Source: Arthrobacter sp. Marseille-P9274 (GTDB lineage Bacteria > Actinomycetota > Actinomycetes > Actinomycetales > Micrococcaceae). From it: a stretch of 64,000 nucleotides of DNA. The translations under genes and the position numbers were made by a program. The notes beneath the pieces were generated by a model, which searched no databases, had not been told where the DNA came from, and was given only the letters and a program-made list of their open reading frames with translations. The stretch covers positions 1 to 64,000 of the forward strand of contig NZ_CAMPOV010000004.1 in NCBI RefSeq assembly GCF_946892675.1. The letters run 5' to 3'. Positions 3,401 to 19,559 of the stretch are shown in pieces; the first letter of the stretch is position 1; every line of letters starts with the position of its first letter.

Positions 3401-4151
3401 CCACGGCCGCCGCGGACGCGCTGCGCCAGGCGTCTTCGCTGTTGCTGATGTACTCGCGGAGCACGCTCAAGTGGCCGGAGTCCCACAGTTCATCGGCCTC
3501 GGAAGAGGCATCCTGGCCGGGAGTCAGCCAGCCGCCGGTGACCCAGCCGTACGTGGCCGGAACTTCGTGTGCCCCCGTTTCGCTGAGGACAGCGCCGATC
3601 TCCACATCCGGGTTGGGTCCGGCCTCGAGCACGCGGAAGAACTTCACGATCAGGGCTTCTTCGTCGCGCTTGACGACGACGGAGGTGTTGGACTGTTCGC
3701 CGGGCAGCACCGAGGCGTCGAGCGGCAGAGTGAAAGGCTGGCGGTCCGCGAAGCCGGCGCCGGCGTGGCCGCGGGTCCGGCCGTCGGAGGTCTCCGATTC
3801 CGCCCGCATCAGCTCCAGCCAGGCCGCGATGAAGACCGGGTCGTGGGTGCCGTCGTAGACCCACCGCTCGTCCACGTGTTCGGCATCCGGCCCGAGCTTG
3901 CCGATCAGGGCCTGGTCACCGCCCTCGAGGGGCCGTGTGCGGATGCTGACCGGCACGTTGACGACGAGGGAGTCCTCGTCGGTCTCGACGGCGGCGATGT
4001 GCACTTCGAGGCCGGCCTCGCCGCTTGGGTCCTGTAGCCGCACCCCGCCGAGGCGCTGGAGCGAGATGTCCTTGCCTTGCGCGGGGAACCAGCGCTGGCC
4101 GGGCAGCCAGTCGCGCAGCAGTTCGGGCAGTGTCAGTACGGGAGTCTTCAC
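435..4151 (-). CDS. glgB: maltokinase-like domain fused to 1,4-alpha-glucan branching enzyme
   Basis: Two enzymes in one 1238-residue chain. Residues 1 to about 480 resemble maltokinase (Mak/Pep2): the cap motif [13 protein letters not shown] lies near the start, the kinase motif IHADYHLGQ at about 335-343 and DFEGEP at 356-361. Mak phosphorylates maltose to maltose-1-phosphate, the donor for GlgE. From about 520 on it is a GH13 branching enzyme: FGGSWGYQ near 805, GLRVDAV with the nucleophile Asp916, AEEST with the acid/base Glu near 969, and [11 protein letters not shown] later. The GTG start at 4151 is chosen because it overlaps the treS stop as GTGA and because [12 protein letters not shown] opens the cap domain. 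The fusion puts maltose activation and branching on one protein directly behind treS and glgE. Domain assignment is confident; activity of both halves is inferred. Confidence 0.93.
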
Positions 4152-5944
4152 GGGGATTCGACCTCTGTTCGGGTGCTCACCGGAGTGATCACGGGGATGG
4201 CTTCGGTCACCGGCGATGCCGGATTGGATCGGGCTGAGCGGATGCGCAGCCAAAAGAAATCGTGGCTTCCCAGGGTTAGTGTCACCTGGCCGGCGTCATC
4301 GAGGACGGGGAACGGCAGGCCGCCGAAGAGATCACGGAGGCCGCGTCCGGCGAACTGGGGCAGCCGCAGCGATGCCGCGACCGGGTGCTGGGAAAGATTG
4401 AAGATGCAGAGCAGGGACTCCGGTTCGGCACCCGAGGGATCGTCCGCCGGGATTTCCCGCAGGAACGCCAGCACCGTTTCCGCCTCGGTCGGCACGTTGC
4501 GGTAGATGCCGAGGCCGAAGGCGGGATGTGACTTGCGGACCGCGAGCATCTGCCGGACCCAGTGGAGGAGCGAGCTGCTGTGGGCCAGCTGGGCCTCGAC
4601 GTTGACGTAGTTGTAGTTGTAGACGAGCGACTGGACGACCGGCAGGTAGAGCTTGCCGGGGTCGGCGGTGGAGAAGCCGGCGTTGCGGTCCGGATTCCAC
4701 TGCATGGGCGTCCTCGAGGCATCCCGGTCGTCGAGCCAGATGTTGTCGCCCATTCCGATCTCGTCCCCGTAGTACAGGAACGGGCTGCCCGGGAGGGACA
4801 GCAGCAGCGCGTGGATGAGTTCCAGTTCGGCGCGGGAATTGTCCAGCAGCGGCGCCAGCCTCCGCCGGATGCCGATGTTCGCACGCATCCGGGAGTCCGG
4901 AGCGTACCAGCCGAGCATGGCTTCCCGCTCCTCGTTGGTCACCATCTCGAGCGTCAGCTCGTCGTGGTTCCGCAGGAAGGTGCCCCACTGCGCCCCCGTC
5001 GGGATGTCGGGCGTTTCCTCCATGGTCCGGATGATCGGTGCGGCCTTCTGGTCCCGCAGCGCGTAGAAAAGCCGGGGCATGATCGGGAAGTGGAAGCACA
5101 TGTGGCACTCGGGAACGAAGCCGTCCGCGTCGTCCCGCTGCCCGAAGTACTCGACCACTTCGTTCGGCATCTGGTTCGCCTCGGCGATGATGACGCGGCC
5201 GGGGTATTCGGCGTCCACCATGGCGCGCAGGTCCTGCAGGAACCGGTGCGTCGCGGGCAGGTTCTCGCAGTTGGTGCCGTCTTCCTCGAACAGGTACGGA
5301 ATGGCATCGGCCCGGAAGCCATCGATGCCCTGGTCCAGCCAGAACCTGACCACGTCGAAAACGGCCTCGATGACCTTGGGGTTCTCGTAGTTCAGGTCCG
5401 GCTGGTGGCTGAAGAATCGGTGCCAGAAGAACTGGCGCCGGATCGGATCGAACGTCCAGTTCGATTCCTCGGTGTCGACGAAGATGATGCGCGCGTCCTG
5501 GTACTTCTCGTCCGTGTCGCTCCAGACGTAGAAGTCGCCGAACGGACCATCGGGTTCCCGCCGCGAAGCCTCGAACCAATGGTGCTGGTCCGAGGTGTGG
5601 TTCAACGGAAGGTCGATGATGACGCGCACGCCCCGGGCGTGGGCTTCGGCGACGAGGCGCTTGAAATCGCTGATCGTCCCGAACTCGTCCAGCACATCGT
5701 AGTAGTCCGCAATGTCGTAGCCGCCGTCGCGCAGCGGCGACTTGAAGAACGGCGGGATCCACAGGCAATCGATTCCCAGCCACTGCAGGTAGTCAAGCTT
5801 CTCGATCAGGCCGGAGAAATCGCCGGATCCGTCCCCGTTCGCATCGGCAAACCCGCGGACCAGCACTTCGTAGAAGACCGCTTTGCGGTACCAGTGCGGA
5901 TCATGGGCGAGGCCGGGTGCGTGCAGTTGGAACGGATTGGCCAC
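4148..5944 (-). CDS. treS: trehalose synthase (maltose alpha-D-glucosyltransferase)
   Basis: A 598-residue GH13 enzyme that interconverts trehalose and maltose, feeding maltose to maltokinase. The N-terminus [16 protein letters not shown] and [10 protein letters not shown] are diagnostic of TreS. The catalytic triad is visible as Asp213 (GFRADAI), Glu255 (IIAEANQ) and Asp328 (FLRNHDEL). No kinase domain is attached; in several actinobacteria maltokinase is fused to TreS, but here it sits on GlgB. The GTG start at 5944 shares one base with the glgE stop (TAGTG) and has a good GGAGGAG ribosome site at 5951-5957. The TGA stop overlaps the next gene's GTG by 4 nt, so glgE, treS and mak-glgB look translationally coupled. 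Confidence 0.95.
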
Positions 5945-7995
5945 TAGCGGCTCCTCCGGATGTGCAGGACGTGGGCGGGCTCCCGGTAAGCGTCCAGGCG
6001 GACGTAGTTGTGCTCGCCCCAGCGCCAACTCTCGCCGGTGATGAGGTCATCCACCCAGAAGAGGCCGTCCTCGCCCAGATCCTGCTGGTCAAGGCCAAGC
6101 GCACCCAGGTTCAGGCTGACCGTCGATTCGCGGGCGCTGTGCGGGTCCACGTTGACGACGACGATGATCGTGTCCTTGCCCCCGCCCGGCAGGTCTTCCT
6201 TGTGTTTGGAGTAGACCACGGTCGCGTCGTCCGTGCTGCTGTGGACGGTCAGGTTCCGCAGTTCGCCGAGCGCCGGGTGGGATCGCCGGATCCCGTTGAG
6301 CCTGGTCAGGTAAGGCGCCAACGAGCGGCCCTCGGCCTCGGCGGCCGTGAAGTCGCGGGCCTTGTACTCGTACTTCTCGTTGTCGATGTACTCCTCGGCG
6401 CCGGGCCGGGCGACGTGCTCGCACAGTTCATACCCGGCATAGACACCCCAGAGCGGGCTGCCGGTCGCGGCCAGCACTGCGCGGATCTTGAACGCGGCCG
6501 GTCCCCCGTACTGCAGGTACTCGGTGAGGATGTCCGGGGTGTTCACGAAGAAGTTCGGCCGGAAGTAATCGGCGCTGTCGTGGCTGACCTCGCTGAAGTA
6601 CTCCTCGATCTCCTGCTTCGTATTGCGCCATGTGAAGTAGCTATAGGACTGCTGGAAACCGGCGCGGCCCAACGCGTGCATCATCGCGGGCCGGGTGAAG
6701 GCCTCGGCGAGGAAGACGACGTCCGGATCGGTGCGGTTTACCTCGCCGATCAGCCATTCCCAGAACCAGACCGGCTTGGTGTGCGGGTTATCCACACGGA
6801 AGATCTTCACGCCGTGGCTGATCCACAGCCGGACGATGCGGAGCACTTCCTCCGAGAGGCCGTCCGGATCGTTGTCGAAGTTCAGCGGATAGATGTCCTG
6901 GTACTTCTTCGGCGGGTTCTCGGCGTAGGCGATGGTGCCGTCCAGCCGCGTCGTGAACCACTCCGGGTGTTCGGTGGCCCACGGGTGGTCCGGCGCCGCC
7001 TGGAGCGCCAGGTCGAGCGCCACTTCGAGGCCGTTCGACGCGGCGGCCGCGACGAAGGCATCGAAATCGTCGAAATTGCCCAGGTCCGGGTGGATGGCGT
7101 CGTGGCCACCGGACGCGGCACCGATGGCCCACGGCGAACCCGGGTCCATCGGACCGGCGTGCAGCGTGTTGTTCGGTCCCTTGCGGTTGATGAACCCGAT
7201 CGGGTGGATCGGCGGCAGGTAGATGACGTCGAAGCCCATGGCGGCCACGGCCGGAAGGCGACGCGCCGCCGTCGTGAAGTTACCCGAAGTCCAGGTGTTT
7301 GCGGCATGGTCGAAGACCGCGCCCTCAGAACGGGGGAAGAACTCGTACCATGCGCCGCGGCCGGCCCGCTCGCGTTCCACCAGCAAGGGGTACTTTTCCG
7401 ACGTCGTGACGAGGCTGCGGATGGGATGGCTGCGGACCGCGGAGAGCACCTCGTGCGAGCCGCCGGCGGCCAGTCGCTCCTCCACCGAACGGCCGCCGTC
7501 GGCGAGGATACCGGCCGCCTGGCGCAGCACTTCGGCGTTGTCCGCGGGCCTCCCCTCCTGCGCCGCGGCTTCGTTGAACAGGTGGACGCCCTCGGCCAGC
7601 ATCAGGTCCACATCGACGCCGGCGGCAATCTTGACTTCAGCGTTGTGGTGCCAGGTGGCGTAAAGGTCCGCCCAGCCTTCGATCGCGAAGCTCCAGAGTC
7701 CCGGGGCGCCGGGGCGAACGACGCCGTGCCAGCGGTCCAGGCCCTTGGCGGGCGGATCCAACTGGCGGCGCTGCACGGCGTTGGAGTCCGGGTCATAGAG
7801 GACGACCGTGACGCCGATCCGGTCGTGGCCCTCGCGGAAGACCGTAGCGGCGACGGGGATGTCTTCGCCCTCGATCGCCTTGGCCGGGAAGCGGCCGCTT
7901 TCGATCACCGGGGCGACGTCGGTGATCGGAATCCTGCCGAAACGCAGGTGGGCCTGGGACGGGGCTGGGCGCGGATCCTCGGTGAATGTGCTCAC
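5944..7995 (-). CDS. glgE: alpha-1,4-glucan:maltose-1-phosphate maltosyltransferase GlgE
   Basis: A 683-residue GH13_3 enzyme that extends alpha-1,4-glucans with maltosyl units from maltose-1-phosphate. The nucleophile Asp402 lies in [10 protein letters not shown] and the acid/base Glu431 in FLAEAFTRP, 29 residues apart as in characterised GlgE. The N-terminal part (about 1-200) carries the expected beta-sandwich and helical dimer regions. It starts at a GTG with no ribosome site but with a minus-strand TAACGT (8003-8008) 7 nt upstream, suggesting a leaderless mRNA. It is first in the glgE-treS-mak/glgB operon and divergent from glgP, an arrangement resembling Mycobacterium glgB-glgE / glgP. 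Confidence 0.95.
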
Positions 7996-8127
7996 ACGCT
8001 AGACGTTAGCGACAAAAAGGGCCGTTTGCTAAGGCCAAGCCCGAAGCCGGAACAAAAACGACGCGTTCGCGTAGCGTTTACAATTCCGAAACCATGCGCC
8101 GGCGTGATCTGCGCTACCGTAGGCCGG
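7996..8127. promoter_or_regulatory. divergent promoter region glgE / glgP
   Basis: This 132-nt gap serves both directions. For glgE a minus-strand -10 TAACGT is at 8003-8008, 7 nt before the GTG. For glgP a plus-strand TACCGT is at 8115-8120, 7 nt before its GTG. Neither has a clear -35 or a Shine-Dalgarno site, so both transcripts may begin at the start codon. No obvious operator palindrome was seen. Confidence 0.5.
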
Positions 8128-10755
8128 GTGAAGGCAATCCGCAGGTTTACCGTCCGCACTGTACTTCCCGAGCGAATCCAGCCGCTGGCGCGGCTGGCGA
8201 GCAATTTGCGCTGGTCCTGGCATCGGCCAACCCAGCAGCTGTTCGAGCGCCTGGATCCCAAGCTGTGGCGGCAGAGCCACGACCCGGTGGCGCTGCTCGG
8301 CTCCTTCAGCCGCGAGCAGCTGCACGCGCTCGCCGCGGACGAGGACCTGGTCGCGCGGGTCCACGAGGTGAGCCAGGACCTGGACCGCTACCTGACCGGC
8401 AGCCGCTGGTACCAGAGCCTGGGCGCCGATGCGCCGAAATCCATCGCCTATTTCTCCCCCGAGTACGGCATCGCGTCGGTGCTGCCGCAGTATTCCGGCG
8501 GCCTGGGCATCCTCGCGGGCGACCATCTGAAGGCCGCGTCCGACCTGGGCGTGCCGCTGATCGGCGTCGGGCTGCTGTACGCCGCCGGTTACTTCAAGCA
8601 GTCCCTGAGCCGCGACGGCTGGCAGCAGGAAACCTACCCGGTGCTGGACCCGGACGGGCTCCCCCTCTCGCTGCTGCGCGAGGCGGACGGGACCCCTGCA
8701 CAGGTGGAACTGCCGCTCCCCAACGACCGCCGCCTGCTGGCGCACATCTGGCGCGCCGACGTCGGACGCGTCCCGCTGCTGCTACTCGACTCGAATGTGG
8801 CCGGCAACGACGAGGCTGCCCGGCACATCACCGACCGGCTCTACGGCGGCGGCGGCGACCACCGGCTGCAGCAGGAACTCCTGCTCGGCATGGGCGGCGT
8901 CAAGGCGCTGCGCATCTTCCAGCGGCTGACCGGCTGCGCGGCGCCCGAGGTCTTCCACACGAACGAGGGCCACGCCGGCTTCCTCGGCATCGAACGCATC
9001 CGCGAGCTCATGGACGAGGGGCTCAGCTGGGACGAGGCCCTCGCGGCGGGCCGGGCCAACACGGTCTTCACCACCCACACTCCCGTGCCGGCCGGCATCG
9101 ACCGCTTCGAGCGGCTGCAGGTGGGGCACTTCTTCCGGGCCGGGCTGGCACCGAACGTCCCCATCGACAAAATCCTGGCGCTCGGCGAGGAGAACTACAG
9201 CGGCGGGGATCCGATCAAGTTCAACATGGCCGTGATGGGCCTGCGGCTGGCACAGCGGGCCAACGGCGTGGCCAAGCTGCATGGCGTAGTCTCGCGGGGG
9301 ATGTTCTCGGGGCTGTGGCCGGGCTTCGACACCAACGAGGTGCCGATCAGCTCCGTCACCAACGGCGTCCATGTGCCGACCTGGGTGGATCCGCGCATCG
9401 CCGAGCTGGCCCTGGCCAAGTTCGGTAACGGCAGCGTCCGGGAACGGCAGTGGGACAGGGTCTACGACGTCTCCGACGCCGAAATCTGGCAGCTGCGGCG
9501 TGAACTGCGCGGCAACCTGATCGAGGACGTCCGCCGCCGGCTGCGTTCCTCCTGGAAGAAGCGCGGCGCGACCGACGCGGAACTCGCCTGGACCGACCAT
9601 GTGCTGGATCCGGACGTCCTGACCATCGGCTTCGCCCGGCGCGTGCCGACGTACAAGCGCCTGACCCTGATGCTGCGCGACCCCGCGCGGCTGAAGGCGC
9701 TGCTGCTGCATCCGGACCACCCCATCCAGCTGGTCATCGCGGGCAAGTCGCATCCGGCGGACGAGCAGGGCAAGCGCATGATCCAGGACCTGGTCCGCTT
9801 CACCGACGACCCGGAGATCCGCCACCGGATTGTCTTCCTGCCCAACTACGACATCGCCATGGCCCGCACGCTGTTCCCGGGCTGCGACGTCTGGCTGAAC
9901 AATCCGCTTCGTCCGCTGGAGGCCTGCGGCACCTCGGGCATGAAGGCGGCGATCAACGGCGGCCTCAACCTGTCTGTGCTGGACGGCTGGTGGGACGAAA
10001 TGTACGACGGCGACAACGGCTGGGCGATCCCGACCGCCAACCCGTCGACCGCGAGCGGGGCCGATTCGCTGTTCAGCGCCGACGAGCGGGACGACATCGA
10101 GGCCTCGGCGCTGTACGGGCTCCTGGAGAACCACGTGGCGCCGCGCTTCTACGCGGACGAAGCCGCCGAGGGCGCCGGGGCCGCGGGCCCTTCCGAGCCC
10201 CTGGCCACCGACGATCAGCTGCCGCATCAGTGGATCGCGATGATCCGGCACACCCTCGCGAACCTGGGGCCGGCCGTTTCTGCCGAGCGGATGGTCGAGG
10301 ACTACGTGCGCCAGCTGTACACGCCGGCCTGCACCTCGGGCCGAATGATCAGGAAGAACGGTTTCTCGGCGGCGCGGAACCTCGCCGGCTGGACCACGCG
10401 CATCCACCACACGTGGAAGGACGTCGCCGTCGAGCATGTGGACTCCCTCGGGATGCAGGACGACCCGCAGATCGGCGATCTCGTCCGCGTCAGTGCCTTC
10501 ATCCAGCTCGGTTCCCTGGTCCCCGATGATGTCTGTGTGGAAGTTGCGCACGGCAAGGTCAGCGAGGGCGATGAGCTGCTCGATACCTCCTTCGACCAGC
10601 TCGCGCTGAAGGAAGACCTCGGCGACGGCCGCTTCCTGTTCTCCGGCGAGGTCCAGATCGACCGCTCCGGCTCCTTCGGCTACACGGTCCGTGTCCTTCC
10701 GCACCACCCGTCGCTGGCCTCCAAGTCGGAACTGGGCCTGGTCACCAACGCCTGA
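8128..10755 (+). CDS. glgP: alpha-glucan (maltodextrin/glycogen) phosphorylase, GT35
   Basis: Releases glucose-1-phosphate from the non-reducing ends of alpha-glucans. The 875-residue protein has the N-terminal DUF3417-type region starting VKAIRRFTVRTVLPERI, then AYFSPEYGI and QYSGGLGILAGDHLKAASD. The PLP-binding lysine is Lys606 in CGTSGMKAAINGGLNLS, followed by the substrate-site stretch DGWWDEMYDG. This is the short actinobacterial and archaeal type, not the E. coli MalP/GlgP type. The open frame runs far upstream without a stop, but homology begins at the GTG at 8128, which also carries the -10 at 8115-8120. It provides the breakdown arm opposite the GlgE synthesis arm. Confidence 0.93.
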   Translation: MKAIRRFTVRTVLPERIQPLARLASNLRWSWHRPTQQLFERLDPKLWRQSHDPVALLGSFSREQLHALAADEDLVARVHEVSQDLDRYLTGSRWYQSLGADAPKSIAYFSPEYGIASVLPQYSGGLGILAGDHLKAASDLGVPLIGVGLLYAAGYFKQSLSRDGWQQETYPVLDPDGLPLSLLREADGTPAQVELPLPNDRRLLAHIWRADVGRVPLLLLDSNVAGNDEAARHITDRLYGGGGDHRLQQELLLGMGGVKALRIFQRLTGCAAPEVFHTNEGHAGFLGIERIRELMDEGLSWDEALAAGRANTVFTTHTPVPAGIDRFERLQVGHFFRAGLAPNVPIDKILALGEENYSGGDPIKFNMAVMGLRLAQRANGVAKLHGVVSRGMFSGLWPGFDTNEVPISSVTNGVHVPTWVDPRIAELALAKFGNGSVRERQWDRVYDVSDAEIWQLRRELRGNLIEDVRRRLRSSWKKRGATDAELAWTDHVLDPDVLTIGFARRVPTYKRLTLMLRDPARLKALLLHPDHPIQLVIAGKSHPADEQGKRMIQDLVRFTDDPEIRHRIVFLPNYDIAMARTLFPGCDVWLNNPLRPLEACGTSGMKAAINGGLNLSVLDGWWDEMYDGDNGWAIPTANPSTASGADSLFSADERDDIEASALYGLLENHVAPRFYADEAAEGAGAAGPSEPLATDDQLPHQWIAMIRHTLANLGPAVSAERMVEDYVRQLYTPACTSGRMIRKNGFSAARNLAGWTTRIHHTWKDVAVEHVDSLGMQDDPQIGDLVRVSAFIQLGSLVPDDVCVEVAHGKVSEGDELLDTSFDQLALKEDLGDGRFLFSGEVQIDRSGSFGYTVRVLPHHPSLASKSELGLVTNA

Positions 10756-10776: not shown

Positions 10777-11142
10777 TCAGCCGTCCTGTACCGGGCCGGC
10801 GGCGGAGGGCGTCGGCCCGGTGGTGAAACCGGTGAGCTTGTGCGTGCCGTCGCAGTAGGGCTTGATGGAAGATGCGCCGCAGCGGCACAGGGCCACGGTC
10901 CGGCGCAGGCGCGGCACCGGCTCGCCTGTTTCCGTCAGGATTTCGACGTCTCCGCGCAGCAGCAGCGGCCCGTTAGGACAGGCCACCACCGTCGCTGCCG
11001 CTGGCTTCGGGAGCGGTTCGACGGTCGGCTCTTCCGGTCGCCGCCCGGCCGCCGCAGCTGGCTCCGGGCGCGGTCTTGCTTCGGCCTCCTCCGGTTGGTC
11101 CGCTGTCGCCGCGGGCTCGGGGTTCGTTGCTCTCACAGCCAT
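10777..11142 (-). CDS. CDGSH-type iron-sulfur domain protein
   Basis: A 121-residue protein. Residues 1 to about 50 are rich in Ala, Pro and Glu and look disordered. The C-terminal half holds one CDGSH signature, CRCGASSIKPYCDGTH, giving the three Cys and one His that bind a [2Fe-2S] cluster. Many bacterial one-motif CDGSH proteins donate electrons or sense redox state; the partner here is unknown. ATG at 11142 has AGGAGG 8 nt upstream and lies 10 nt inside the end of the glycosyltransferase gene, so it is the last gene of a three-gene operon with the diiron oxygenase-like protein. Similar CDGSH and haem-oxygenase-fold pairs occur in other actinobacteria as I recall, but I could not verify this. 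Confidence 0.85.
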   Translation of the reverse strand: MAVRATNPEPAATADQPEEAEARPRPEPAAAAGRRPEEPTVEPLPKPAAATVVACPNGPLLLRGDVEILTETGEPVPRLRRTVALCRCGASSIKPYCDGTHKLTGFTTGPTPSAAGPVQDG

Positions 11143-12152
11143 GCTCGTTGGCCTCCTCGTTGTTGGATCGGAGCACCGGCGGCCTGCGTCCGATAGCGTC
11201 GTCGCAGTTGCCGGGCGGATGTCCCGGCCCGTGGAATCCGCCCGCCGGCATAGTGCACCCCGCCGGCCAGCCGCAGGCCGACGGCCAGCCAGCTGCAGAC
11301 CGCGCGCTCGAGCACCCAGCAGGGCGCCCACAGTGCCGAACCCGGCGGGAAGACCGCGGTGCCGTTGTGCCGGCGCCGCCCGGCCTCGGCCAAGGCGATC
11401 GAGGCGGCAAGCAGCGGGACCAGGCGCGCGGGCCTGCGCGCAGCCCAGCAGATGAGCGGCAGCAGCAACAGCTCGGCGGCAAGCCTTCCCGGCTGGGCGA
11501 AGCTGTCATAGGCCTGCCGGATCCGTTGTCGGCGAAAGTGCGCCGAGGCCGGGGGTATCCTGCCGACGTACAGGCCGTCCGCCCGCACCTGCCGCCCGCC
11601 CGCCGCCTCGACCGTGCGGATCAACTCCAGGTTCTCGAACAGGACCTCGCCGTCGTAGCCGCCGGTTGCCTCCAGCATGCTCCGCCGGACGCCGAGCGTC
11701 CCGGGATAGTCGGAGCCGAAGGCCCGGTTGAGCAGAGTCCGCGCGGTGTCCCACCGGGCGTGCCACGGCCACTCGAGGAAGTAGTTCTGCGGCCGCACGA
11801 GCTCTGCGTCCACGAGGAGTGCCACCAACCGGCGCAGGCCTTGCAGCGTGTACCGGACGTCGTCGTCCGCCAGGACCAGGAACTCGCTCTCGCTGCTGCG
11901 CACTCCGGTGATGACGCCGGCTGCCTTGCCATTGCGGCCGTGCCCCGGTTCCGGACGGATGTGGCGGACCAGGTCCTGCCACGCGCGCCGGTGTGCCTCG
12001 AACACCGCTGGCGGCGAGCCGTCCACCACGGTGATGCGGATCCAGCCGGAGAGCACCCGCAGGTAGTCGGTCAGCTCTTCGAGCCCCCCGTCCTCGGACC
12101 AGCGCAGCGGCAGAATGTACTCTGCCTCCGCCAGGTCCGGCGAGGCTGTCAT
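11133..12152 (-). CDS. family 2 glycosyltransferase
   Basis: A 339-residue GT-A fold protein. A nucleotide-binding start ITVVDGSPPAVFEAH and the metal-binding LVLADDDVRYT are visible in the first third, then a GT2-like GTLGVRRSMLEATGGYDG and FENLELIRTVEAAGG. The C-terminal part has hydrophobic stretches (LAAELLLLPLICWAA, LVPLLAASIALA) that could anchor it in the membrane. It starts at ATG 12152, overlapping the stop of the upstream oxygenase-like gene as ATGA, and ends 10 nt inside the CDGSH gene. Sugar and acceptor cannot be told from the sequence; the tight coupling suggests it modifies or anchors the product of the neighbouring oxygenase, which is inference. Confidence 0.85.
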   Translation of the reverse strand: MTASPDLAEAEYILPLRWSEDGGLEELTDYLRVLSGWIRITVVDGSPPAVFEAHRRAWQDLVRHIRPEPGHGRNGKAAGVITGVRSSESEFLVLADDDVRYTLQGLRRLVALLVDAELVRPQNYFLEWPWHARWDTARTLLNRAFGSDYPGTLGVRRSMLEATGGYDGEVLFENLELIRTVEAAGGRQVRADGLYVGRIPPASAHFRRQRIRQAYDSFAQPGRLAAELLLLPLICWAARRPARLVPLLAASIALAEAGRRRHNGTAVFPPGSALWAPCWVLERAVCSWLAVGLRLAGGVHYAGGRIPRAGTSARQLRRRYRTQAAGAPIQQRGGQRAWL

Positions 12153-13177
12153 GCCGGGGCTTCGGCGGGGACCAGGAGCGCCGACTGCCCCGCTTGCCAC
12201 GCCTCCAGCTGGTGCCGGCCGGCGAGCGCGTCCACTGCGAGCGCGGCGGCAGCCCCGAAGAAGATATCGGCCAGCAGCGCGGGCTCCGCTTCGGCGAGCC
12301 CGCCTGCCATGTCGCGGCCCGCAATCTGTTCGTGCACGGCGTCCGCCTCGACGTGCTCGTCGAAGTAGTCGCGGACGTCGGCCCCGTAGCCCAGCCGGCG
12401 GAACCCTCGGCTGTACAGCTTGTTGGGGATCGACGACGTCATCTCGTACGCGGCCAGATGCCCCACGATCGCTCCGCGGAGCCGGCGGTTGAGGCCGAAC
12501 AGCGACATCATGTTGACCGCGGCGAGGGTCACGGCGGGGACCGCGTCGATATAGGCGCCGTAGGCGTCCTCCAGCCCTGCTCCGCGCATCGCCCTGGCAA
12601 ACAGCCCCGAATGCATGCGCTCGGGCCGGCCGCCGCCGTATTCGTCCGACTGGATCTCGACCAGCGCTGCCTTGGCCCGTCCGCCCAGGCGCGGGATCGC
12701 CCAGCTGTGCGGGTCCGCCTCCTTCAGCTGGTAGATCGAGCGGAGGATCAGGAACTCGCGCAGCTGCTCGCTTGTTGCCTCCTTGGCGACGTACCGCGAC
12801 AGGCTGGGACCGCCGTCGTCCGCGGTGAGGGCGAACAGCCCAGCGGCAACGGGCTCCGCGGCAGGTTCGGGCAGCGGGGGCACTACAGCCATCCGGCGCA
12901 GAGCCCCTTCGAAGCTGCGCTCAAGGCCGGTCCTCGCCCGGATCAGCTCCGGGTGCCATTCCCAGCCGTCGGCGACGCCGTCCAGGCCCCCATAATGCAG
13001 TTCATAGAGGCAGAACAGCGCGAGCTGCACATCGCCGTCGTGCATAAAATCTTCCGGCTCAGGCCAGGTGTCCGGCCGGGGGTGCGGCAAAGGTTCCGGC
13101 AGCCTTTCCTGCGGGGCTTCGACCATGTTCGCGAGTAGTGCGCTGCTCAGCGGTCCCCGCGCTGTGGGTTTCCTCAT
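12149..13177 (-). CDS. iron-containing redox enzyme family protein (haem-oxygenase-like diiron oxidase)
   Basis: A 342-residue, mostly helical protein of the haem-oxygenase-like fold. Candidate metal ligands cluster as in diiron oxidases of this superfamily: Glu153 and His157 (LKEADPHSW), Glu174, Glu179 and His189 (DEYGGGRPERMHS), and Asp273, Glu274, His275, Asp279 and His282 (FDEHVEADAVHE). Members include the N-oxygenase SznF and the decarboxylase UndA, so an oxidative step on a small molecule is likely, but the substrate is unknown. It is the first gene of a three-gene operon. The start ATG has an AAAGGG site 5-6 nt upstream, and an AT-rich promoter-like patch lies at 13201-13230. Confidence 0.8.
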   Translation of the reverse strand: MRKPTARGPLSSALLANMVEAPQERLPEPLPHPRPDTWPEPEDFMHDGDVQLALFCLYELHYGGLDGVADGWEWHPELIRARTGLERSFEGALRRMAVVPPLPEPAAEPVAAGLFALTADDGGPSLSRYVAKEATSEQLREFLILRSIYQLKEADPHSWAIPRLGGRAKAALVEIQSDEYGGGRPERMHSGLFARAMRGAGLEDAYGAYIDAVPAVTLAAVNMMSLFGLNRRLRGAIVGHLAAYEMTSSIPNKLYSRGFRRLGYGADVRDYFDEHVEADAVHEQIAGRDMAGGLAEAEPALLADIFFGAAAALAVDALAGRHQLEAWQAGQSALLVPAEAPA

Positions 13178-13276
13178 TGTTGCCCTTTCTGCCCATCCCT
13201 CTTACTTATAAGCATACTTAGAAATAGCATGAGTCTTGTTCGCCCGTTTACACACGAAGCCGGGAAAGGAGGAGGC
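13178..13276. promoter_or_regulatory. divergent AT-rich promoter region
   Basis: A 99-nt gap between the oxygenase operon and yihY. Positions 13201-13230 are strikingly AT-rich for this genome and contain the palindrome CTTATAAG (13205-13212) and two ACTTA repeats. For the plus strand TTACTT (13202-13207) and TAGCAT (13225-13230) are 17 nt apart. The palindrome could be an operator for either side; no regulator gene is adjacent. Confidence 0.4.
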
Positions 13277-14350
13277 GTGGAGAAAGAGAACAGCTCGTCG
13301 AAAGCGGCGACGGCGCCCCATCCGGAGGATGAGCGGAAGCCGGACACTCCTGCCGAGGTCAAGAAGCCCTCGTGGAAGTACATCTTCCGCAAGTCCGTGC
13401 GCGAGTTCTCCGCGGACCAGTGCACCGACCTGGCCGCGGCGCTCACCTACTACGCTGTGCTGTCGTTGTTCCCGGCGCTGCTCGCCTTGGTGTCCATCCT
13501 CGGCATTGTCGGCCAGGGGGAACAGACAACGACGGCGATGCTGGACACGCTTCAGCGGGTAGCCCCCGGGCAGGCCGCCGACACCCTGCGGCAGCCGATC
13601 GAGCAGCTGGCAAATGCTCCTTCGGCCGGACTGGCGCTCGTCGTCGGCATCGCGGGCGCCCTGTGGTCCGCCTCGGGGTATGTCGGGGCGTTCGGCCGCG
13701 CGATGAACCGCATCTACGAGGTCGACGAAGGCAGGCCCTTCTGGAAGCTTCGGCCCGCCATGCTCCTGGTCACGCTCATCGTCGTGCTGCTCGCGGCCGC
13801 CATGATGCTGATCCTGGTGCTGTCGGGGCCGGTTGCCGAGGCGCTCGGCGCGACCATCGGCCTGGGCGATGCGGCGCTGACCGCTTGGAATATCGCCAAG
13901 TGGCCGATCCTCATTGCCTTCGCGGTGCTCGTGGTCGCCCTGTTGTACTACGCGACCCCGAACGTGAAGCAACCGAAATTCCGCTGGATGAGCATGGGCG
14001 CGTTCCTGGCCCTGCTGGTCCTGGCGGTCACCACGTTGGGATTTGCCTTCTACGTCGCGAATTTCGCGAACTACAACCGCACCTACGGCGCCATCGGCGG
14101 CGTGATCGTCCTGCTGCTCTGGTTCTACCTGTCGAATCTGTCGCTGCTTTTCGGCGCGGAATTCGACGCTGAGGCCGAGCGCGGGCGCCAGCTGCAGGCA
14201 GGCATCGGGGCGGAAGAGACCATCCAGCTGCCGCCGCGCGACACGCGCAAGAGCGACAAGCAACTCAAGAAGGAAAAGGAGGACATAGAGCGTGGACGTT
14301 CACTGCGTCGCGACCTCGGCGAGAGCCGCGAGGACAGCAGGCGCACCTAG
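13277..14350 (+). CDS. YihY/BrkB family inner-membrane protein
   Basis: A 357-residue protein with about six membrane helices between residues 50 and 290. The family signature QCTDLAAALTYYAVLSLFPA is clear, as are SASGYVGAFGRAMNRIY and NRTYGAIGGVIVLLLWFYLS. Both ends are charged; the C-terminal 60 residues are Lys/Arg/Glu-rich and cytoplasmic. Function is not established for the family (formerly called ribonuclease BN by mistake). The GTG at 13277 is preferred to an ATG 16 codons upstream because AAAGGAGGAGG stands immediately before it. It probably heads a run of envelope/stress genes up to 16390. Confidence 0.85.
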   Translation: MEKENSSSKAATAPHPEDERKPDTPAEVKKPSWKYIFRKSVREFSADQCTDLAAALTYYAVLSLFPALLALVSILGIVGQGEQTTTAMLDTLQRVAPGQAADTLRQPIEQLANAPSAGLALVVGIAGALWSASGYVGAFGRAMNRIYEVDEGRPFWKLRPAMLLVTLIVVLLAAAMMLILVLSGPVAEALGATIGLGDAALTAWNIAKWPILIAFAVLVVALLYYATPNVKQPKFRWMSMGAFLALLVLAVTTLGFAFYVANFANYNRTYGAIGGVIVLLLWFYLSNLSLLFGAEFDAEAERGRQLQAGIGAEETIQLPPRDTRKSDKQLKKEKEDIERGRSLRRDLGESREDSRRT

Positions 14351-14400
14351 TTTGCCCATCCGCCCCATCGACTGACCCGACTCCAGGAGAAGGAATTGCT

Positions 14401-15321
14401 ATGACGACCAACACCCCAGGAAACTACGACGACGACACCGCAGGCCTCGGCCCGACAGGCGGCACCTTTGGACGTCCGGGCGGAGTCGGCGGCGAGACCC
14501 TCCCGCCGGCGCGGCCGGCCGAGCCCCTCACCGAACCGGTAACGACCTACGAGCCGGAGCAGTCCAAGTCCGAAACGGCCAAGCAGGAAGCCAAGGAAGT
14601 GGGCCGCGAGGGCGCAGCCGCCGGCCAGCACGTGGCGGAAACCGCTAAGACCGAAGCGAAGCAGGTCGCCCACGAGGCCAAGGAACAGGCCCGCTCGCTG
14701 ATGTCCCAGCTCGGCGACAACGTTCACAGCCAGGCCGGTGCCCAGCAGCAGAAGGTTGCCTCCGGCCTGCGGTCCATCGGCGAAGAGCTCGCGTCGATGG
14801 CGCGGAACTCGGAGCAGTCCGGCAACGCGACCCATCTGGTCAGCCAAGCGTCCGACAAGGCCCGCTCCGTCGCCGATTGGCTGGAGAACAGGGATCCCGG
14901 TTCGCTGCTCGACGAGGTCAAGCGGTTCGCGCGGCAGCGGCCCGGCGCGTTCCTGGCCATCGCCGCCGGCGCGGGCCTGGTCGCCGGCCGGCTGACCCGA
15001 GGGCTGACCGCGGATAGCGGCACCGGCGGATCGGCCCGCCGGGCGGGCACCACGGACTACGACACCCGGAGCGCCAGGGGCTATGCCGCACCGGGCAGCC
15101 AGGCCGGGGCCGGCTACGGCGGCGCCCCGGGCTACCCGGAGACGATCGGCTACCCCACTGCCACTCCGACCGGCGCCACGGATCGGTACGACACCTCCGG
15201 CTCCGTCGGCGGTGCCGCGGGGTCGCCGGAGAGCATCAGCTACCCGGAGACCGACACCGACCTGCGCCGCGGTACGGCCATCCCCGAGCGGGATCCCTTT
15301 GAAGGCGGTGGCAGCCGATGA
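14401..15321 (+). CDS. conserved actinobacterial protein, Ala/Gly-rich with one membrane segment
   Basis: A 306-residue protein of unknown function. The N-terminal third is low complexity, with an amphipathic Ala/Glu/Lys helix (about 55-110, AKQEAKEVGREGAAAGQHV) that resembles LEA-type stress proteins. A middle helical region ends in a hydrophobic segment PGAFLAIAAGAGLVAGRLTRG near residue 185. The tail is Gly/Tyr/Pro-rich. ATG at 14401 has AAGGA 7 nt upstream. It overlaps the next gene by ATGA. The operon with a DUF1469 and a DUF3618 protein is typical of Micrococcales and suggests a role in membrane or osmotic stress, by context only. Confidence 0.75.
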   Translation: MTTNTPGNYDDDTAGLGPTGGTFGRPGGVGGETLPPARPAEPLTEPVTTYEPEQSKSETAKQEAKEVGREGAAAGQHVAETAKTEAKQVAHEAKEQARSLMSQLGDNVHSQAGAQQQKVASGLRSIGEELASMARNSEQSGNATHLVSQASDKARSVADWLENRDPGSLLDEVKRFARQRPGAFLAIAAGAGLVAGRLTRGLTADSGTGGSARRAGTTDYDTRSARGYAAPGSQAGAGYGGAPGYPETIGYPTATPTGATDRYDTSGSVGGAAGSPESISYPETDTDLRRGTAIPERDPFEGGGSR

Positions 15322-15770
15322 GCGAACGCTACCCGGAAGCCGGAAACGTTCCCCCGACGCAAGCCGAAGTCAAGGCCGAAACCAGCTCGCTCGGCGATCT
15401 GCTCTCCGACGTCTCGCGCGACATGTCCGTGCTGATGCGGCAGGAACTGGAGCTGGCGAAGGCTGAGGCCAAGGAGTCAGCCACCCGTGCCGGCAAGGGC
15501 GCGGGAATGCTGACCGGCGCGGGCATCGCCGGCCACTTCGTGCTGCTCTTCCTCTCGATCGCCCTCTGGTGGGGGCTCGGCCTCGTCATGGGCCAAGGTT
15601 CAGGCTTCGTCTGGTCCGCGATCATCGTGGCCGTCATCTGGGCGATCATCGCAGCGATCCTCGCGGCCGTTGGCAAGAAGCAGCTGAAGAGCGTCCAAGG
15701 TATCCCCCGGACGCAGGAATCCGTCAAGAAAATTCCCGAAACTCTCAAACCCAGTGAGGATGCACGATGA
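15318..15770 (+). CDS. phage-holin-like superfamily III protein (DUF1469)
   Basis: A 150-residue membrane protein with two hydrophobic segments (about 60-90 and 95-120) joined by a short loop, preceded by the conserved helix LLSDVSRDMSVLMRQELELAKAEAKE. This matches the DUF1469 putative actinobacterial holin-X family. Despite the name these proteins are chromosomal and not tied to phage; nothing phage-like is nearby. It overlaps its neighbours by 4 nt on each side (ATGA), so the three genes are translated as a unit. Confidence 0.85.
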   Translation: MSERYPEAGNVPPTQAEVKAETSSLGDLLSDVSRDMSVLMRQELELAKAEAKESATRAGKGAGMLTGAGIAGHFVLLFLSIALWWGLGLVMGQGSGFVWSAIIVAVIWAIIAAILAAVGKKQLKSVQGIPRTQESVKKIPETLKPSEDAR

Positions 15771-16390
15771 GCCAGTCACCTGAAGAAATCCGGGCCGATA
15801 TCGAACGCACCCGTGGCCGCTTGGGCACCGATGTGGACGCCGTAGCCGAGAAGGTCTCGCCGTCGAACATCGTGCACCGGCAGACCGACAAAGTAAAGGA
15901 CACGTTCAGCCGGGCCAAGGACAAGGTCATGGGAAGCGCGGACGACACCGTCGGTTCCGCCAGGTCCACCGTCCGCGACACGGCGGATTCCGCCCGTTCC
16001 GCGGCGCACGACGCCGGCCATGCCGTCCAAGAGGCGCCGCACACCATTGCCCGCAAGACCGAGGGCAACCCGCTGGCGGCCGGCCTGATCGCCTTCGGGG
16101 CCGGCCTGCTGGTTTCCTCCCTATTCCCGGCTACCAGGGCCGAACAGCGCGCCGCCGAGCGCGTGAAGGAAGAGGCCCAGCCCCTTGTGGAGGAAGCCAA
16201 GGGTTCCGCCCAGCAGGTCGCCCAGGGCTTGAAGGAGCCGGCCCGCGAGGCGGCGGAACAGCTCAAGTCCTCGGCGCAGGATTCCGCCGAGCACGTCAAG
16301 GAAGAAGGCAAGTACGCCGCCGAGGACGTGAAGTCGCGAGCCGATGAGGCCCGCACCAACGTCCAGGAGGACCAGCCGCGGCAGTACTAG
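15767..16390 (+). CDS. DUF3618 domain protein
   Basis: A 207-residue protein. The first 35 residues are the DUF3618 signature (SPEEIRADIERTRGRLGTDV). A membrane segment PLAAGLIAFGAGLLVSSLF lies near residue 110, followed by a long Ala/Glu/Lys amphipathic helix to the C-terminus. It is the last gene of the DUF1469/DUF3618 operon, and a very strong hairpin follows. The function is unknown; in related genera such proteins are linked to cell envelope and stress by position only. Confidence 0.85.
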   Translation: MSQSPEEIRADIERTRGRLGTDVDAVAEKVSPSNIVHRQTDKVKDTFSRAKDKVMGSADDTVGSARSTVRDTADSARSAAHDAGHAVQEAPHTIARKTEGNPLAAGLIAFGAGLLVSSLFPATRAEQRAAERVKEEAQPLVEEAKGSAQQVAQGLKEPAREAAEQLKSSAQDSAEHVKEEGKYAAEDVKSRADEARTNVQEDQPRQY

Positions 16391-16470: not shown

Positions 16471-18549
16471 TCAGGCGCGGTAGATGCTGATGGAATTGGC
16501 GCCGATGATTTCGCGTTCCCCGCTCCCGATCCGCGCGCCGCGGCGGCGTTCGTCGTAGTCGGAGGTCGTCAGGAGCAATTCGAAGGTCCGGCCGTGGTTC
16601 TCGGCCACGCCGAAATCCCGCAGGGCCGCGGAGCTGGGCATCATGATCTTCCGCGGCTCGAGCCGGCCGTTGAGAACCACCAGCCCGTCGATGGTGCCGC
16701 TGGGAGATCCCATCAGCAGCTGGACGGTGCGGCTGGACGGGTTCGTCCACTGGTCCTGGGTCATCGGCTCGCCGGACTCGTTGAACCACAGCAGGTATGA
16801 GCCGTGTTCCGTGGCCGGATAGCCGTACGGCTGGTTGGCCAGGAAAACCTTGCGGATCCGCAGCAGCCGCCGGGTAGTTCGGAGCAACTGCTCCTGCCGG
16901 TCGTCCAGCAGCCAGTGCAACCAACTGAGCTCGTTGTCCTGGCAGTACACGTTGTTGTTGCCGTGCTGGGTCTTCCCCAGCTCGTCCCCGGCGGTGATCA
17001 TCGGGACGCCGAGCGAGAGCAGCAGGGTGGCCATCAGGTTCCGTGCCGCGCGGGCCCTGGCGTCCAGCAAGGCGCTGTCCCCGGTGGCGCCTTCGACACC
17101 ATGGTTGTAGCTGCGGTTGTGGTTGGTGCCGTCCCGGTTTTCCTCGCCGTTGTCCTCGTTGTGCTTGCGGTCGAAGGATGTCAGGTCCGCCAGGGTGAAG
17201 CCGTCGTGGGCGGTGACGAAATTGATCGATGCAAGCGGCCCGCGGCCGGAACCGGCGAAGACCTCGGCCGAGCCGGCGAGGCAGCTGGCCAGCCGCGCGA
17301 CCGAGGAGCCGCTCCCGCCGTGGTTCAGCGCGTTGGCGTCCTCCAGCCAGAAGCTGCGGGCCGCATCCCGGAACCGGTCGTTCCAGTCCGCCCAGCCCTG
17401 CGGGAAGTTCCCGGTCTGCCAGCCGCCCGGGCCGACGTCCCACGGTTCGGAGATCAGCTTGGCCCGGGAAACCACCGGATCGGCGGCGATCGCCGCGAGG
17501 AAAGGGTGGTTCGGGTCGAAGTGGTTGTTCTCGTCCCGGGCCAGGGAGACGGCCAGGTCGAAGCGGAAGCCGTCGATGTGGAATTCTTCGATCCAGTAGC
17601 GCAGCGAATCCATGACCAGCTGGAGTACCCGGGGCTCGTTGAGGTTGAGGGTGTTGCCGCAACCGGTCGTGTCCAGGTAGTTGCCGTGCGCGTCGTGGCG
17701 GTAGTAGGCATGGTCGGCCAGGCCGCGGTACGAGTAGGTGCGCTGGTGTTTGCCGCCCTCGGCCGTGTGGTTGTACACCACGTCCAGGATCACCTCGAGC
17801 CCGGCCTCGTGCAGGGTCTTCACCATGGTCTTGAATTCGTCGTGCACGGCCTTCGGCCCCGCCCGGCGCGACGCGGTCGTCGCGTACTCCTCGTGCGGGG
17901 CGAAGAAGCCGAGGGTGTTGTATCCCCAGTAGTTGGACAGGCCGAGCTCCTGCAGGTGCGGCTCGTCCAGATGGAAGTGTACGGGCAGCAGCTGGACCGA
18001 GGTGATGCCGAGGTTCAGCAGGTAGTCAATCATCACCGGATGGGCCAGCCCGGCATAGGTGCCGCGCAGTTCCGCCGGAATCTGCGGGTGCAGCATGGTC
18101 TGGCCCTTGACGTGGCACTCATAGATCACCGTGTCGCGCCACGGAACCTGCGGGGGCCGCGCGCCGTCCCAGTCGAAACCAGGTTCGACGAACACGGAAT
18201 GGAAGGTCCCGCCGTCGTCCGTGATGGCGCGCGCGTACGGGTCCACCAGCAGCTGGCCGTGCCTCACTTGGCCGCCGCGGGGCCAGAAGCCGTAGCGGCT
18301 CCCCTCCCCCAGGCCGGACACCACCCCGTGGTGGACGCCGTCGGTCAGCTCGGTCAGCGGGGCGCTGGACCACCGTCCGCCGGCCTTGAAGTGGACATCC
18401 ACCGCCTTCAGCTCCGGGGCGAAGACGGCCACGTTCACCAGGCCGCCGGCATCGATCCCCGCGTCGCTGACGCCCAGCGGAAAGGGCCGCGACAGGTGGT
18501 CGCGGCGGAGCCGGAGTTCGGCGGGGATCTTTTCTTGTGGTTCGGCCAA
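16471..18549 (-). CDS. glgX: glycogen debranching enzyme GlgX (isoamylase type)
   Basis: A 692-residue GH13_11 enzyme that cleaves alpha-1,6 branches, acting after GlgP. An N-terminal CBM48 domain (about 20-120, RPFPLGVS onwards) precedes the catalytic barrel. VIYECHVKG is near 141, the nucleophile Asp331 is in DGFRFDLAV, the acid/base Glu368 in LISEPWDVG, and the third Asp in FVTAHDGFTLADL. The start is taken as TTG 18549 because the family N-terminus begins only about 20 residues later and the rlmB stop lies 23 nt upstream; the precise start is uncertain. It follows rlmB closely on the same strand, so read-through expression is likely. Confidence 0.93.
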   Translation of the reverse strand: MAEPQEKIPAELRLRRDHLSRPFPLGVSDAGIDAGGLVNVAVFAPELKAVDVHFKAGGRWSSAPLTELTDGVHHGVVSGLGEGSRYGFWPRGGQVRHGQLLVDPYARAITDDGGTFHSVFVEPGFDWDGARPPQVPWRDTVIYECHVKGQTMLHPQIPAELRGTYAGLAHPVMIDYLLNLGITSVQLLPVHFHLDEPHLQELGLSNYWGYNTLGFFAPHEEYATTASRRAGPKAVHDEFKTMVKTLHEAGLEVILDVVYNHTAEGGKHQRTYSYRGLADHAYYRHDAHGNYLDTTGCGNTLNLNEPRVLQLVMDSLRYWIEEFHIDGFRFDLAVSLARDENNHFDPNHPFLAAIAADPVVSRAKLISEPWDVGPGGWQTGNFPQGWADWNDRFRDAARSFWLEDANALNHGGSGSSVARLASCLAGSAEVFAGSGRGPLASINFVTAHDGFTLADLTSFDRKHNEDNGEENRDGTNHNRSYNHGVEGATGDSALLDARARAARNLMATLLLSLGVPMITAGDELGKTQHGNNNVYCQDNELSWLHWLLDDRQEQLLRTTRRLLRIRKVFLANQPYGYPATEHGSYLLWFNESGEPMTQDQWTNPSSRTVQLLMGSPSGTIDGLVVLNGRLEPRKIMMPSSAALRDFGVAENHGRTFELLLTTSDYDERRRGARIGSGEREIIGANSISIYRA

Positions 18550-18572
18550 GGCTGTCTGCTTCCGACGAAAGG

Positions 18573-19559
18573 CTACTGCCCGGCGCGCTGCCGGGAGACC
18601 TCGTAGAGGCTGATGCCCACGGCCATGGATGCGTTCAGCGATTCCATGTCGGAATCGATGGGGATGGAGACAATCTGGTCGCAGTGCTCGCGCACCAGGC
18701 GGGAGAGGCCCTTGCCTTCGGAGCCCACCACCAGGCAGAGCGGCTCCGTGGCCAGTTCCAGCCCGGGCAGCGAAACGTCGCCGCCGCCGTCGAGGCCCAG
18801 GACGAAGATTCCCATGGACTTGAAGGCCTTCAGGGTGTTGTTCAGGTTGGCGGCGCGGGCCACCGGGACGCGGACGGCCGCACCGGCGCTGGTCTTCCAC
18901 GCCGAGGCCGTCATGCCGACCGCCCGTCGTTCGGGCACGATCACGCCGTGGCCGCTGAACGCTGACACCGAACGGATGATGGCGCCCAGGTTGCGCGGAT
19001 CCGTGATGCCGTCCAGCGCGACGAAGAGCGGTGCGTTGCGGATGTAGCCCTTGGTGAACTTGGCCATGGTGTCCTCGGCCAGGTCCAGCGCGTCCGGGTA
19101 ATCGTAGGGCGGCACCTGCAGGACCAGGCCCTGGTGGACGGCGTCCTCCGTCATCCGGTCCAGTTCCGGCTTCTGCGCCTCCAGCACGGGGATGCCGCGC
19201 TCGGCCGCGATCTTCAGCGACTCCTTGACCCGGTCGTCCATCTCCACGCGGACGGCGACATACAGTGCCTTCGCGGGCACGCCGCCGCGCAGCGCTTCCA
19301 CCACGGAGTTGCGCCCGGTGACCATCTCCTCGGCCGCCTTGCCGCCGGCACGGCGGGTGGGAGCGGACTTGCCGCCGGCACGACGGGCGGAGGAACGCTC
19401 GGACAGCTGCTTGGCACGGTAGGCCTTGTGGTAGGGCCGGTCCTCGGCCTTTGGCGTCGGGCCCTTGCCTTCGAGAGCCTTGCGGCCGTGCCCGCCGGTG
19501 CCCGTGGTGGGGCCCTTCTTGGACTTGCGCACCGCTCCGGGGCGGGGTTTGTTGGCCAT
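18573..19559 (-). CDS. rlmB: 23S rRNA (guanosine-2'-O-) methyltransferase, SpoU/TrmH family
   Basis: A 328-residue protein. Residues 1 to about 80 are a basic, disordered, RNA-binding tail rich in Lys, Arg and Gly, usual in actinobacteria. An L30e-like substrate-binding domain (TGRNSVVEALRGGVPAKALYV) follows, then the SPOUT knot domain with DGITDPRNLGAIIRS, GVIVPERRAVG, VGSEGKGLSRLV and the final SIPIDSDMESLNASMAVGI. The expected reaction is 2'-O-methylation of G2251 in 23S rRNA. GAAGG precedes the ATG by 8 nt. It lies downstream of cysS, as in Mycobacterium (the Rv3579c-Rv3580c pair). Confidence 0.92.
   Translation of the reverse strand: MANKPRPGAVRKSKKGPTTGTGGHGRKALEGKGPTPKAEDRPYHKAYRAKQLSERSSARRAGGKSAPTRRAGGKAAEEMVTGRNSVVEALRGGVPAKALYVAVRVEMDDRVKESLKIAAERGIPVLEAQKPELDRMTEDAVHQGLVLQVPPYDYPDALDLAEDTMAKFTKGYIRNAPLFVALDGITDPRNLGAIIRSVSAFSGHGVIVPERRAVGMTASAWKTSAGAAVRVPVARAANLNNTLKAFKSMGIFVLGLDGGGDVSLPGLELATEPLCLVVGSEGKGLSRLVREHCDQIVSIPIDSDMESLNASMAVGISLYEVSRQRAGQ

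Follow-up and report, generated by a model that had tools for sequence, protein, structure and literature searches.

The window studied here (64,000 nucleotides, positions 1 to 64,000 of contig NZ_CAMPOV010000004.1 of Arthrobacter sp. Marseille-P9274) carries on its minus strand three overlapping genes. The first encodes a protein of the heme-oxygenase-like dimetal enzyme family (HDO; 13177..12149, 342 aa, PF14518 or Haem_oxygenas_2 at 1.1e-60), the second a glycosyltransferase (GT; 12152..11133, 339 aa, GT2-type by its model) and the third a CDGSH protein (11142..10777, 121 aa, PF09360 or zf-CDGSH at 5.4e-18). The genes overlap by 4 nt (12149-12152, ATGA) and by 10 nt (11133-11142), as an earlier sequence-only reading of this DNA had it; an alternative GTG start at 12200 would give a longer form of the GT. 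The same reading had pointed to an AT-rich palindromic patch at 13201-13230, which is real: it holds at 13209-13220 the motif TAAGCATACTTA (pattern TAAGYRYRCTTA, no strand assigned), whose core is conserved upstream of HDOs and which is repeated in the own genome. The three genes had further been taken for one unit made of an oxidase, a tailoring enzyme and an electron donor or sensor. The trio does not hold as a conserved unit, the GT lying within 3 kb of the HDO in just 50 of the 181 loci compared below; the conserved unit is the HDO-CDGSH pair, with optional further genes.

The HDO and its nearest relatives

An alignment of 38 HDOs, that of the window included, contains 17 invariant columns, among which are E153, E179, H189, E245, H275, D279 and H282; in a wider alignment each of these seven predicted ligands is present in 100 or 101 of the 101 HDOs. 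Aligned to SznF (PDB 6m9r), they stand opposite E189, E215, H225, E281, H311, D315 and H318 respectively, which we take to be the diiron ligands of that enzyme. The full set of Glu/His/Asp ligands announced from the sequence is thus present, all seven SznF positions being occupied, and a dimetal site is expected. As for the second metal site, on which the earlier proposal depended, neither the alignment nor the model (which holds no metals) speaks against it. E153, E179, H189, H275, D279 and H282 make up the 3H/3C ligand set, while E245 faces the extra Glu of the 3H/4C type. HrmI also has a Glu there and is nevertheless classed as 3H/3C in a 2026 review (PMC13108848), so that the role of E245 as seventh ligand is uncertain, and a 3H/4C site, though likely, cannot be taken as certain.

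The AF2 model of the HDO, built from 42 sequences (pLDDT 93.2, pTM 0.92), has the heme-oxygenase fold, matching HrmI, SznF and RohS at E values of 6e-10 to 6e-7. Foldseek ranks HrmI first (5.8e-10), before SznF (2.0e-9) and RohS (9.4e-8), then FlcD, CADD and BesC. The same three lead the profile search (SznF 3e-21, HrmI 4e-20, RohS 4e-17), far above BesC (7e-7), and UndA is not among its matches at E up to 1. The likeness to the three proteins (for SznF, to its HDO domain) thus extends over the fold (TM-score about 0.7), the seven SznF ligand positions and the best profile scores. On the other hand, the window HDO shares only 16-22% identity with them, has a CDGSH neighbour and is devoid of a detectable cupin domain: PF14518 is its sole Pfam match at E up to 1, which sets it apart from SznF proper. 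Beside it we recognised no gene cluster for an N-nitroso compound, azomycin or nitro-lysine. As the three leading relatives are all N-oxygenases, the protein is most likely N-oxygenase-like.

Members of the HDO superfamily also catalyse desaturation, C-C cleavage and decarboxylation (PMC13108848), and the window HDO might perform one of these reactions on a fatty or amino acid. We regard this as rather unlikely, because the N-oxygenases lead in sequence as well as in structure, whereas BesC is far weaker and UndA does not appear.

The CDGSH protein and its pairing with the HDO

The pairing was followed at two scales. Within the 120 genomes of the window's family, all candidates were scored; over 396 genomes of the phylum, only the top first-look candidates of each genome were (5 for HDO and GT, 17 for CDGSH), which leaves absences less sure. 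HDO relatives occur in 48 of the family genomes and in 65 of those of the phylum, a few by weak matches; CDGSH genes occur in 48 and 125 respectively. In the family, the 48 genomes are identical for both proteins (Fisher p 1e-34, uncorrected for kinship) and an HDO gene is found at most 1.5 kb away from 49 of the 50 CDGSH genes; in the remaining case (genome G493) the two are 11 kb apart. Two genomes of the samples, G416 and G507, have a second HDO match (207 residues or more) and two CDGSH genes each. Of the 38 genomes of the class among the 396, the own included, 27 hold both, 10 neither, none the CDGSH alone and a single one the HDO alone; this last match (G352, 28% identity over about half of the query) is to a distant HDO. 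The CDGSH protein is therefore confined to HDO genomes in the samples of the family (48/48) and of the class (27/27), but not in that of the phylum. Over the phylum, both are found in 49 genomes, neither in 255, an HDO without CDGSH match in 16 and a CDGSH without HDO match in 76.

Neighbourhoods were compared in 181 loci: the window, 100 chosen stretches and 80 named loci (the best 80 of 589 relatives, including Arthrobacter, Microbacterium, Leifsonia, Cellulomonas and Glycomyces). In 154 of them a CDGSH gene is found no more than 3 kb from the HDO, so that the co-localisation is by no means confined to one strain. It is downstream on the same strand in 123, downstream but opposed in 20, upstream on the same strand in 6 and upstream opposed in 5. 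With the window and the 100 chosen stretches only, and gene centres within 3 kb (the 101 loci hereafter), the CDGSH gene is near the HDO in 78. The linkage persists through changes of arrangement, which suggests that the pair is under selection. That the three genes came together by chance, without joint function, is hardly credible: the GT is indeed labile on the HDO tree, but the match of HDO and CDGSH over the 120 genomes refutes chance for the pair, and even for the GT none of 500 shuffles reached the clustering seen on the tree. In the open literature, no paper treating the HDO-CDGSH pair was found among the matches listed.

Two side observations concern the HDO genes themselves. Four genomes of one genus (G428, G454, G496 and G513) show one TGA inside each HDO match, where the alignment may run past the gene end; and locus L080 (genome G236) has two divergent HDO genes back to back, with a GT after one.

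The CDGSH protein is the only CDGSH match in its 4.78 Mb genome. Its cluster motif CRCGASSIKPYCDGTH (3 Cys 1 His, of the form C-x-C ... C-D-x-[STA]-H) starts at residue 86, and the motif is present in 155 of the 157 CDGSH open reading frames (ORFs) of the loci; of the two that are devoid of it, one is about 7 kb from the HDO (L075) and the other (L147) is a weak ORF that comes in addition to the normal CDGSH gene next to it. The same 3 Cys 1 His motif characterises the NEET proteins (mitoNEET, 3TBM, 3TBN, 3TBO), 3TBM being matched at 6.9e-10. Unlike these, the window protein is tied to one enzyme family and has a Pro-, Ala- and Glu-rich N-terminal extension of about 50 residues. For human mitoNEET, electron transfer with FMNH2 as donor and O2 or ubiquinone as acceptor has been described (PMC9490426).

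A comparable association is found in the mangotoxin cluster, where the HDO MboA likewise has a dedicated redox protein from the same cluster, MboB (PMC13185094), named as its redox partner in the review of the superfamily (PMC13108848) and required for the second step of MboA (PMC13108848; PMC13185094). The partners differ: MboB is described as a reductase with flavin and Fe2S2 (PMC13185094), whereas zf-CDGSH is the only domain found in the window protein.

Plasmids offered a further comparison. Six of the 15 plasmid records matched by P0001 were examined, the plasmid gene tables being incomplete. The HDO stands with a CDGSH gene and a HemK2/MTQ2 methyltransferase in Streptomyces NBC_00984, in the order methyltransferase, CDGSH, HDO with SigB/SigF/SigG sigma factors at the flanks in Streptomyces CA-256286, with the CDGSH alone in Curtobacterium and with a Rieske protein in Azospirillum. 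The incomplete tables of the Nostoc and Gordonia records show no Fe-S neighbour, and the Gordonia HDO looks split. Among five plasmid records, out of 12, with at least 80% cover, four (Azospirillum, Gloeothece, Methylobacterium and Pantoea) have a Rieske-annotated gene directly downstream of the HDO relative; the fifth, Tistrella, has no Rieske gene there. The presence of another small [2Fe-2S] protein in the CDGSH slot is best explained by electron donation. Besides, the Rieske-type loci (L263, L274, L275 and L276) have an ATP-grasp gene near in three cases and a methyltransferase in two, PRMT-like in Pantoea. Rieske-linked HDOs are called SznF-like on account of a cupin domain, looked for in two of them: Azospirillum scores above the cut-off, Pantoea below. 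The plasmid HDO-Rieske operons could possibly belong to unexplored N-oxygenation pathways.

The CDGSH protein might instead donate iron or a [2Fe-2S] cluster for loading a labile dimetal site. HDO metal sites are indeed reported as labile (PMC13108848), and a part in the handling of iron and Fe-S clusters is discussed for NEET proteins (PMC6006223). Such a role would account equally well for the co-occurrence of the two genes. In other phyla, however, the same slot is occupied by a Rieske protein, a fold that serves electron transfer and is not known for cluster donation, and we consider the loading role quite improbable. The earlier suggestion of an electron donor or sensor is thus kept for its first half: phyletic match, adjacency and Rieske substitution elsewhere favour a donor, and the CDGSH protein is probably an electron donor dedicated to the HDO, the electron flow being our inference.

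Optional neighbours of the pair

The GT matches its Pfam family weakly (PF00535 at 2.8e-4, below the cut-off). Its motifs, DDD at 96-98 and Q209-R210-x-R212-Q213, are invariant, and its AF2 model (pLDDT 90.8), with a GT-A fold carrying the Asp motif, matches GT2 enzymes at E down to 1e-10. Foldseek brings out PcManGT, cellulose and hyaluronan synthases, ArnC and, lower, DPMS, with TM-scores of about 0.4-0.65 and a root-mean-square deviation that is often high. Three long C-terminal helices in the model suggest a membrane enzyme, and this resemblance to membrane GT2 synthases leaves the "tailoring enzyme" of the sequence-only reading unproven.

The GT is an optional member of the operon, near the HDO in 22 of the 101 loci. 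On a tree of 179 HDOs the presence of the GT requires 32 changes by a quick method, at least 17 of them forced by starred branches, against a mean of 43.8 in the shuffles. In 24 of the 101 loci a HemK2-like methyltransferase is near the HDO, never together with the GT, and 32 loci have CDGSH and HDO side by side but no GT, methyltransferase or GCS2 ligase. A carboxylate-amine ligase of this GCS2 type is encoded no further than 3 kb from the HDO at 12 of the 101 loci (L066, L068, L070, L081, L089, L121 and six of the window's family).

In the phylum sample, the GT is found in 20 of the 396 genomes (E 1e-30 or better). An HDO match accompanies it in 14 of them but not in the remaining six, all of a single genus, which rules out the GT as a fixed partner of the HDO. 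In this HDO-less genus, the GT is followed by a protein of the same look in the four loci examined (L267, L268, L269 and L271). The only one scanned, that of L268, belongs to the GntA family of heme N-hydroxylases (293.6 bits for a cut-off of 145). That two N-oxygenase families would stand beside one GT family gives indirect support to an N-oxygenated product. In the same four loci the protein after the GT is of the YqcI/YcgG type, and a SAM methyltransferase-like ORF precedes the GT.

A GT-CDGSH fusion was also considered, in a genome of the window's genus (L122, G479): the ORF of 446 aa keeps an in-frame ATG at the start of the CDGSH part and may result from a lost stop, so that it was not used as proof.

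Upstream motif, stress context and readings of the pair

The motif at 13209-13220 lies between the HDO and a divergent gene for a YihY/BrkB-like membrane protein, and may serve either gene or both (genes around motif sites and around the operon are named here from their sequence). Its core, AAGYRYRCTT, has 37 matches in the 120 family and named loci, of which 16 are at most 200 nt upstream of an HDO, for 0.4 expected; these 16 span 14 loci, including two pairs of loci from the same genomes. The pattern TAAGYRYRCTTA has 6 sites in the own genome (G000), and the reversed control pattern none. Beyond that of the window, they are at C5:33064-33075, C3:13778-13789, C1:568377-568388, C2:628794-628805 and C5:17618-17629. 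Apart from the HDO/YihY interval, one site is before a SigB/F-like sigma factor gene, one before a PRC-barrel protein gene and one near a MarR-like gene; of the remaining two, one is by a small gene preceding two others and one at an unclear place. A count over 41 genomes of the family gives 73 sites, spread over 16 of them, as compared with 23 for the control, the excess being found in part of the genera. Among 15 sites of relatives, 8 have a close and correctly oriented gene start (with GlsB/YeaQ-like, SDR, YihY and HDO genes among them) and 7 have none. TAAGYRYRCTTA could possibly be the motif of a stress regulator of Arthrobacter-like genera.

On the plus strand (13229-16390) the divergent group comprises YihY/BrkB-like membrane, holin-like and DUF3618-like small-protein genes, an assemblage that by its gene names is typical of general stress clusters. 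Genes of glycogen and trehalose metabolism lie on both sides of the operon (435-10755 and 16471-18900), with a branching enzyme, a trehalose synthase, a glycogen phosphorylase and a debranching enzyme.

In family f6, taken for Mycobacteriaceae, 9 of the 14 loci have a SigF-type promoter before the HDO; overall it is found in 16 of 182 HDO upstream regions, as compared with 0.5% of random windows. As a candidate for the window's own family it was not retained: the strict pattern matched one locus, L123, 188 nt upstream. The printed promoter sequences of M. smegmatis, with up to 9 substitutions allowed, have no match in the loci examined. In that species MSMEG_1771-1773 is reported as reduced in a sigF mutant (PMC4694148) and appears in spray-drying tables (PMC5445863). 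These genes of the SigF regulon, a methylase and two further genes with SigF promoters (PMC4694148; PMC5445863), resemble locus L104 in gene order and promoter when compared by eye. They would fit a methyltransferase-CDGSH-HDO set, an assignment from order and promoter that is not proof; with a methyltransferase and no GT, they differ from the window operon.

DtpC of Acinetobacter baumannii, also HDO-like and tied to desiccation and oxidative stress, is co-transcribed with a catalase and protects dried cells (PMC13232832). Its partner gene is the catalase katE, and "CDGSH" is absent from the main text of that paper. A stress role of the HDO-CDGSH pair is likely, be it through a metabolite or through direct handling of O2 or peroxide, and the pair would be induced by stress in this genus too. 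This context is an addition to the earlier reading of the operon.

Direct handling would mean that the role of the pair under stress is to eliminate O2 or H2O2, the reduced CDGSH protein driving the dimetal site as a reductase, with no dedicated metabolite. DtpC limits H2O2 in dried cells and requires its predicted metal ligands (PMC13232832). The 32 loci in which none of GT, methyltransferase and GCS2 ligase accompanies the HDO and the CDGSH, the stress contexts of the motif sites and the sigma factors flanking the pair in one Streptomyces plasmid agree with such a role. Nevertheless, the methyltransferase or GT neighbours in 46 of the 101 loci point to a product, the best-ranking relatives of solved structure are biosynthetic and DtpC is likened by description, not by sequence; we hold this explanation to be unlikely. 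A bolder proposal, which we likewise find doubtful, is that the CDGSH protein solely serves the HDO in the whole lineage, the pair being a general-stress consumer of O2 or peroxide, or maker of a stress metabolite, and the counterpart in Actinomycetota of the DtpC that Acinetobacter has beside its catalase.

A stress-linked N-oxygenase-like HDO with a dedicated CDGSH electron donor remains in our opinion the best reading, with about even chances of being right. The HDO would activate O2 at a pair of metals, diiron or Fe/Mn, bound by E153, E179, H189, E245, H275, D279 and H282. Electrons for this site would come from the CDGSH protein and allow repeated turnover; a flavin reductase whose gene lies elsewhere would probably reduce the CDGSH protein itself. 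Judging from the nearest relatives, the reaction would most likely be the N-oxygenation of an amino-acid-like or amine metabolite, and the GT2 membrane enzyme here, or the HemK2-like methyltransferase in other lineages, would modify the product or a related acceptor.

Several observations weigh against this reading. Among the 65 HDO genomes of the phylum sample 16 have no CDGSH match; 25 of the 181 loci have no CDGSH ORF in the stretch (some stretches stop at contig ends) and in 2 it is more than 3 kb from the HDO; and the six P0001 plasmid records divide into three with CDGSH, one with Rieske and two, Nostoc and Gordonia, with neither. HDOs studied to date are said in the 2026 review to need no protein effector (PMC13108848). 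HrmI has a Glu at the E245 position although reviewed as 3H/3C, the GT looks like a membrane synthase, and no substrate-making gene is constantly near the HDO across the loci examined. Finally, the motif is shared with YihY: in genome G432 the site is before YihY on contig 46, the HDO being on contig 45.

Arthrobacter relatives and many other actinobacteria thus keep a probable dimetal HDO beside a probable Fe-S electron supplier. As one CDGSH family and one HDO family occur in identical genomes of the family, a single in vitro assay would address the roles of both proteins, and the exchange of CDGSH for Rieske provides a natural comparison. The link with stress suggests for the pair a role beyond the classical natural-product clusters.

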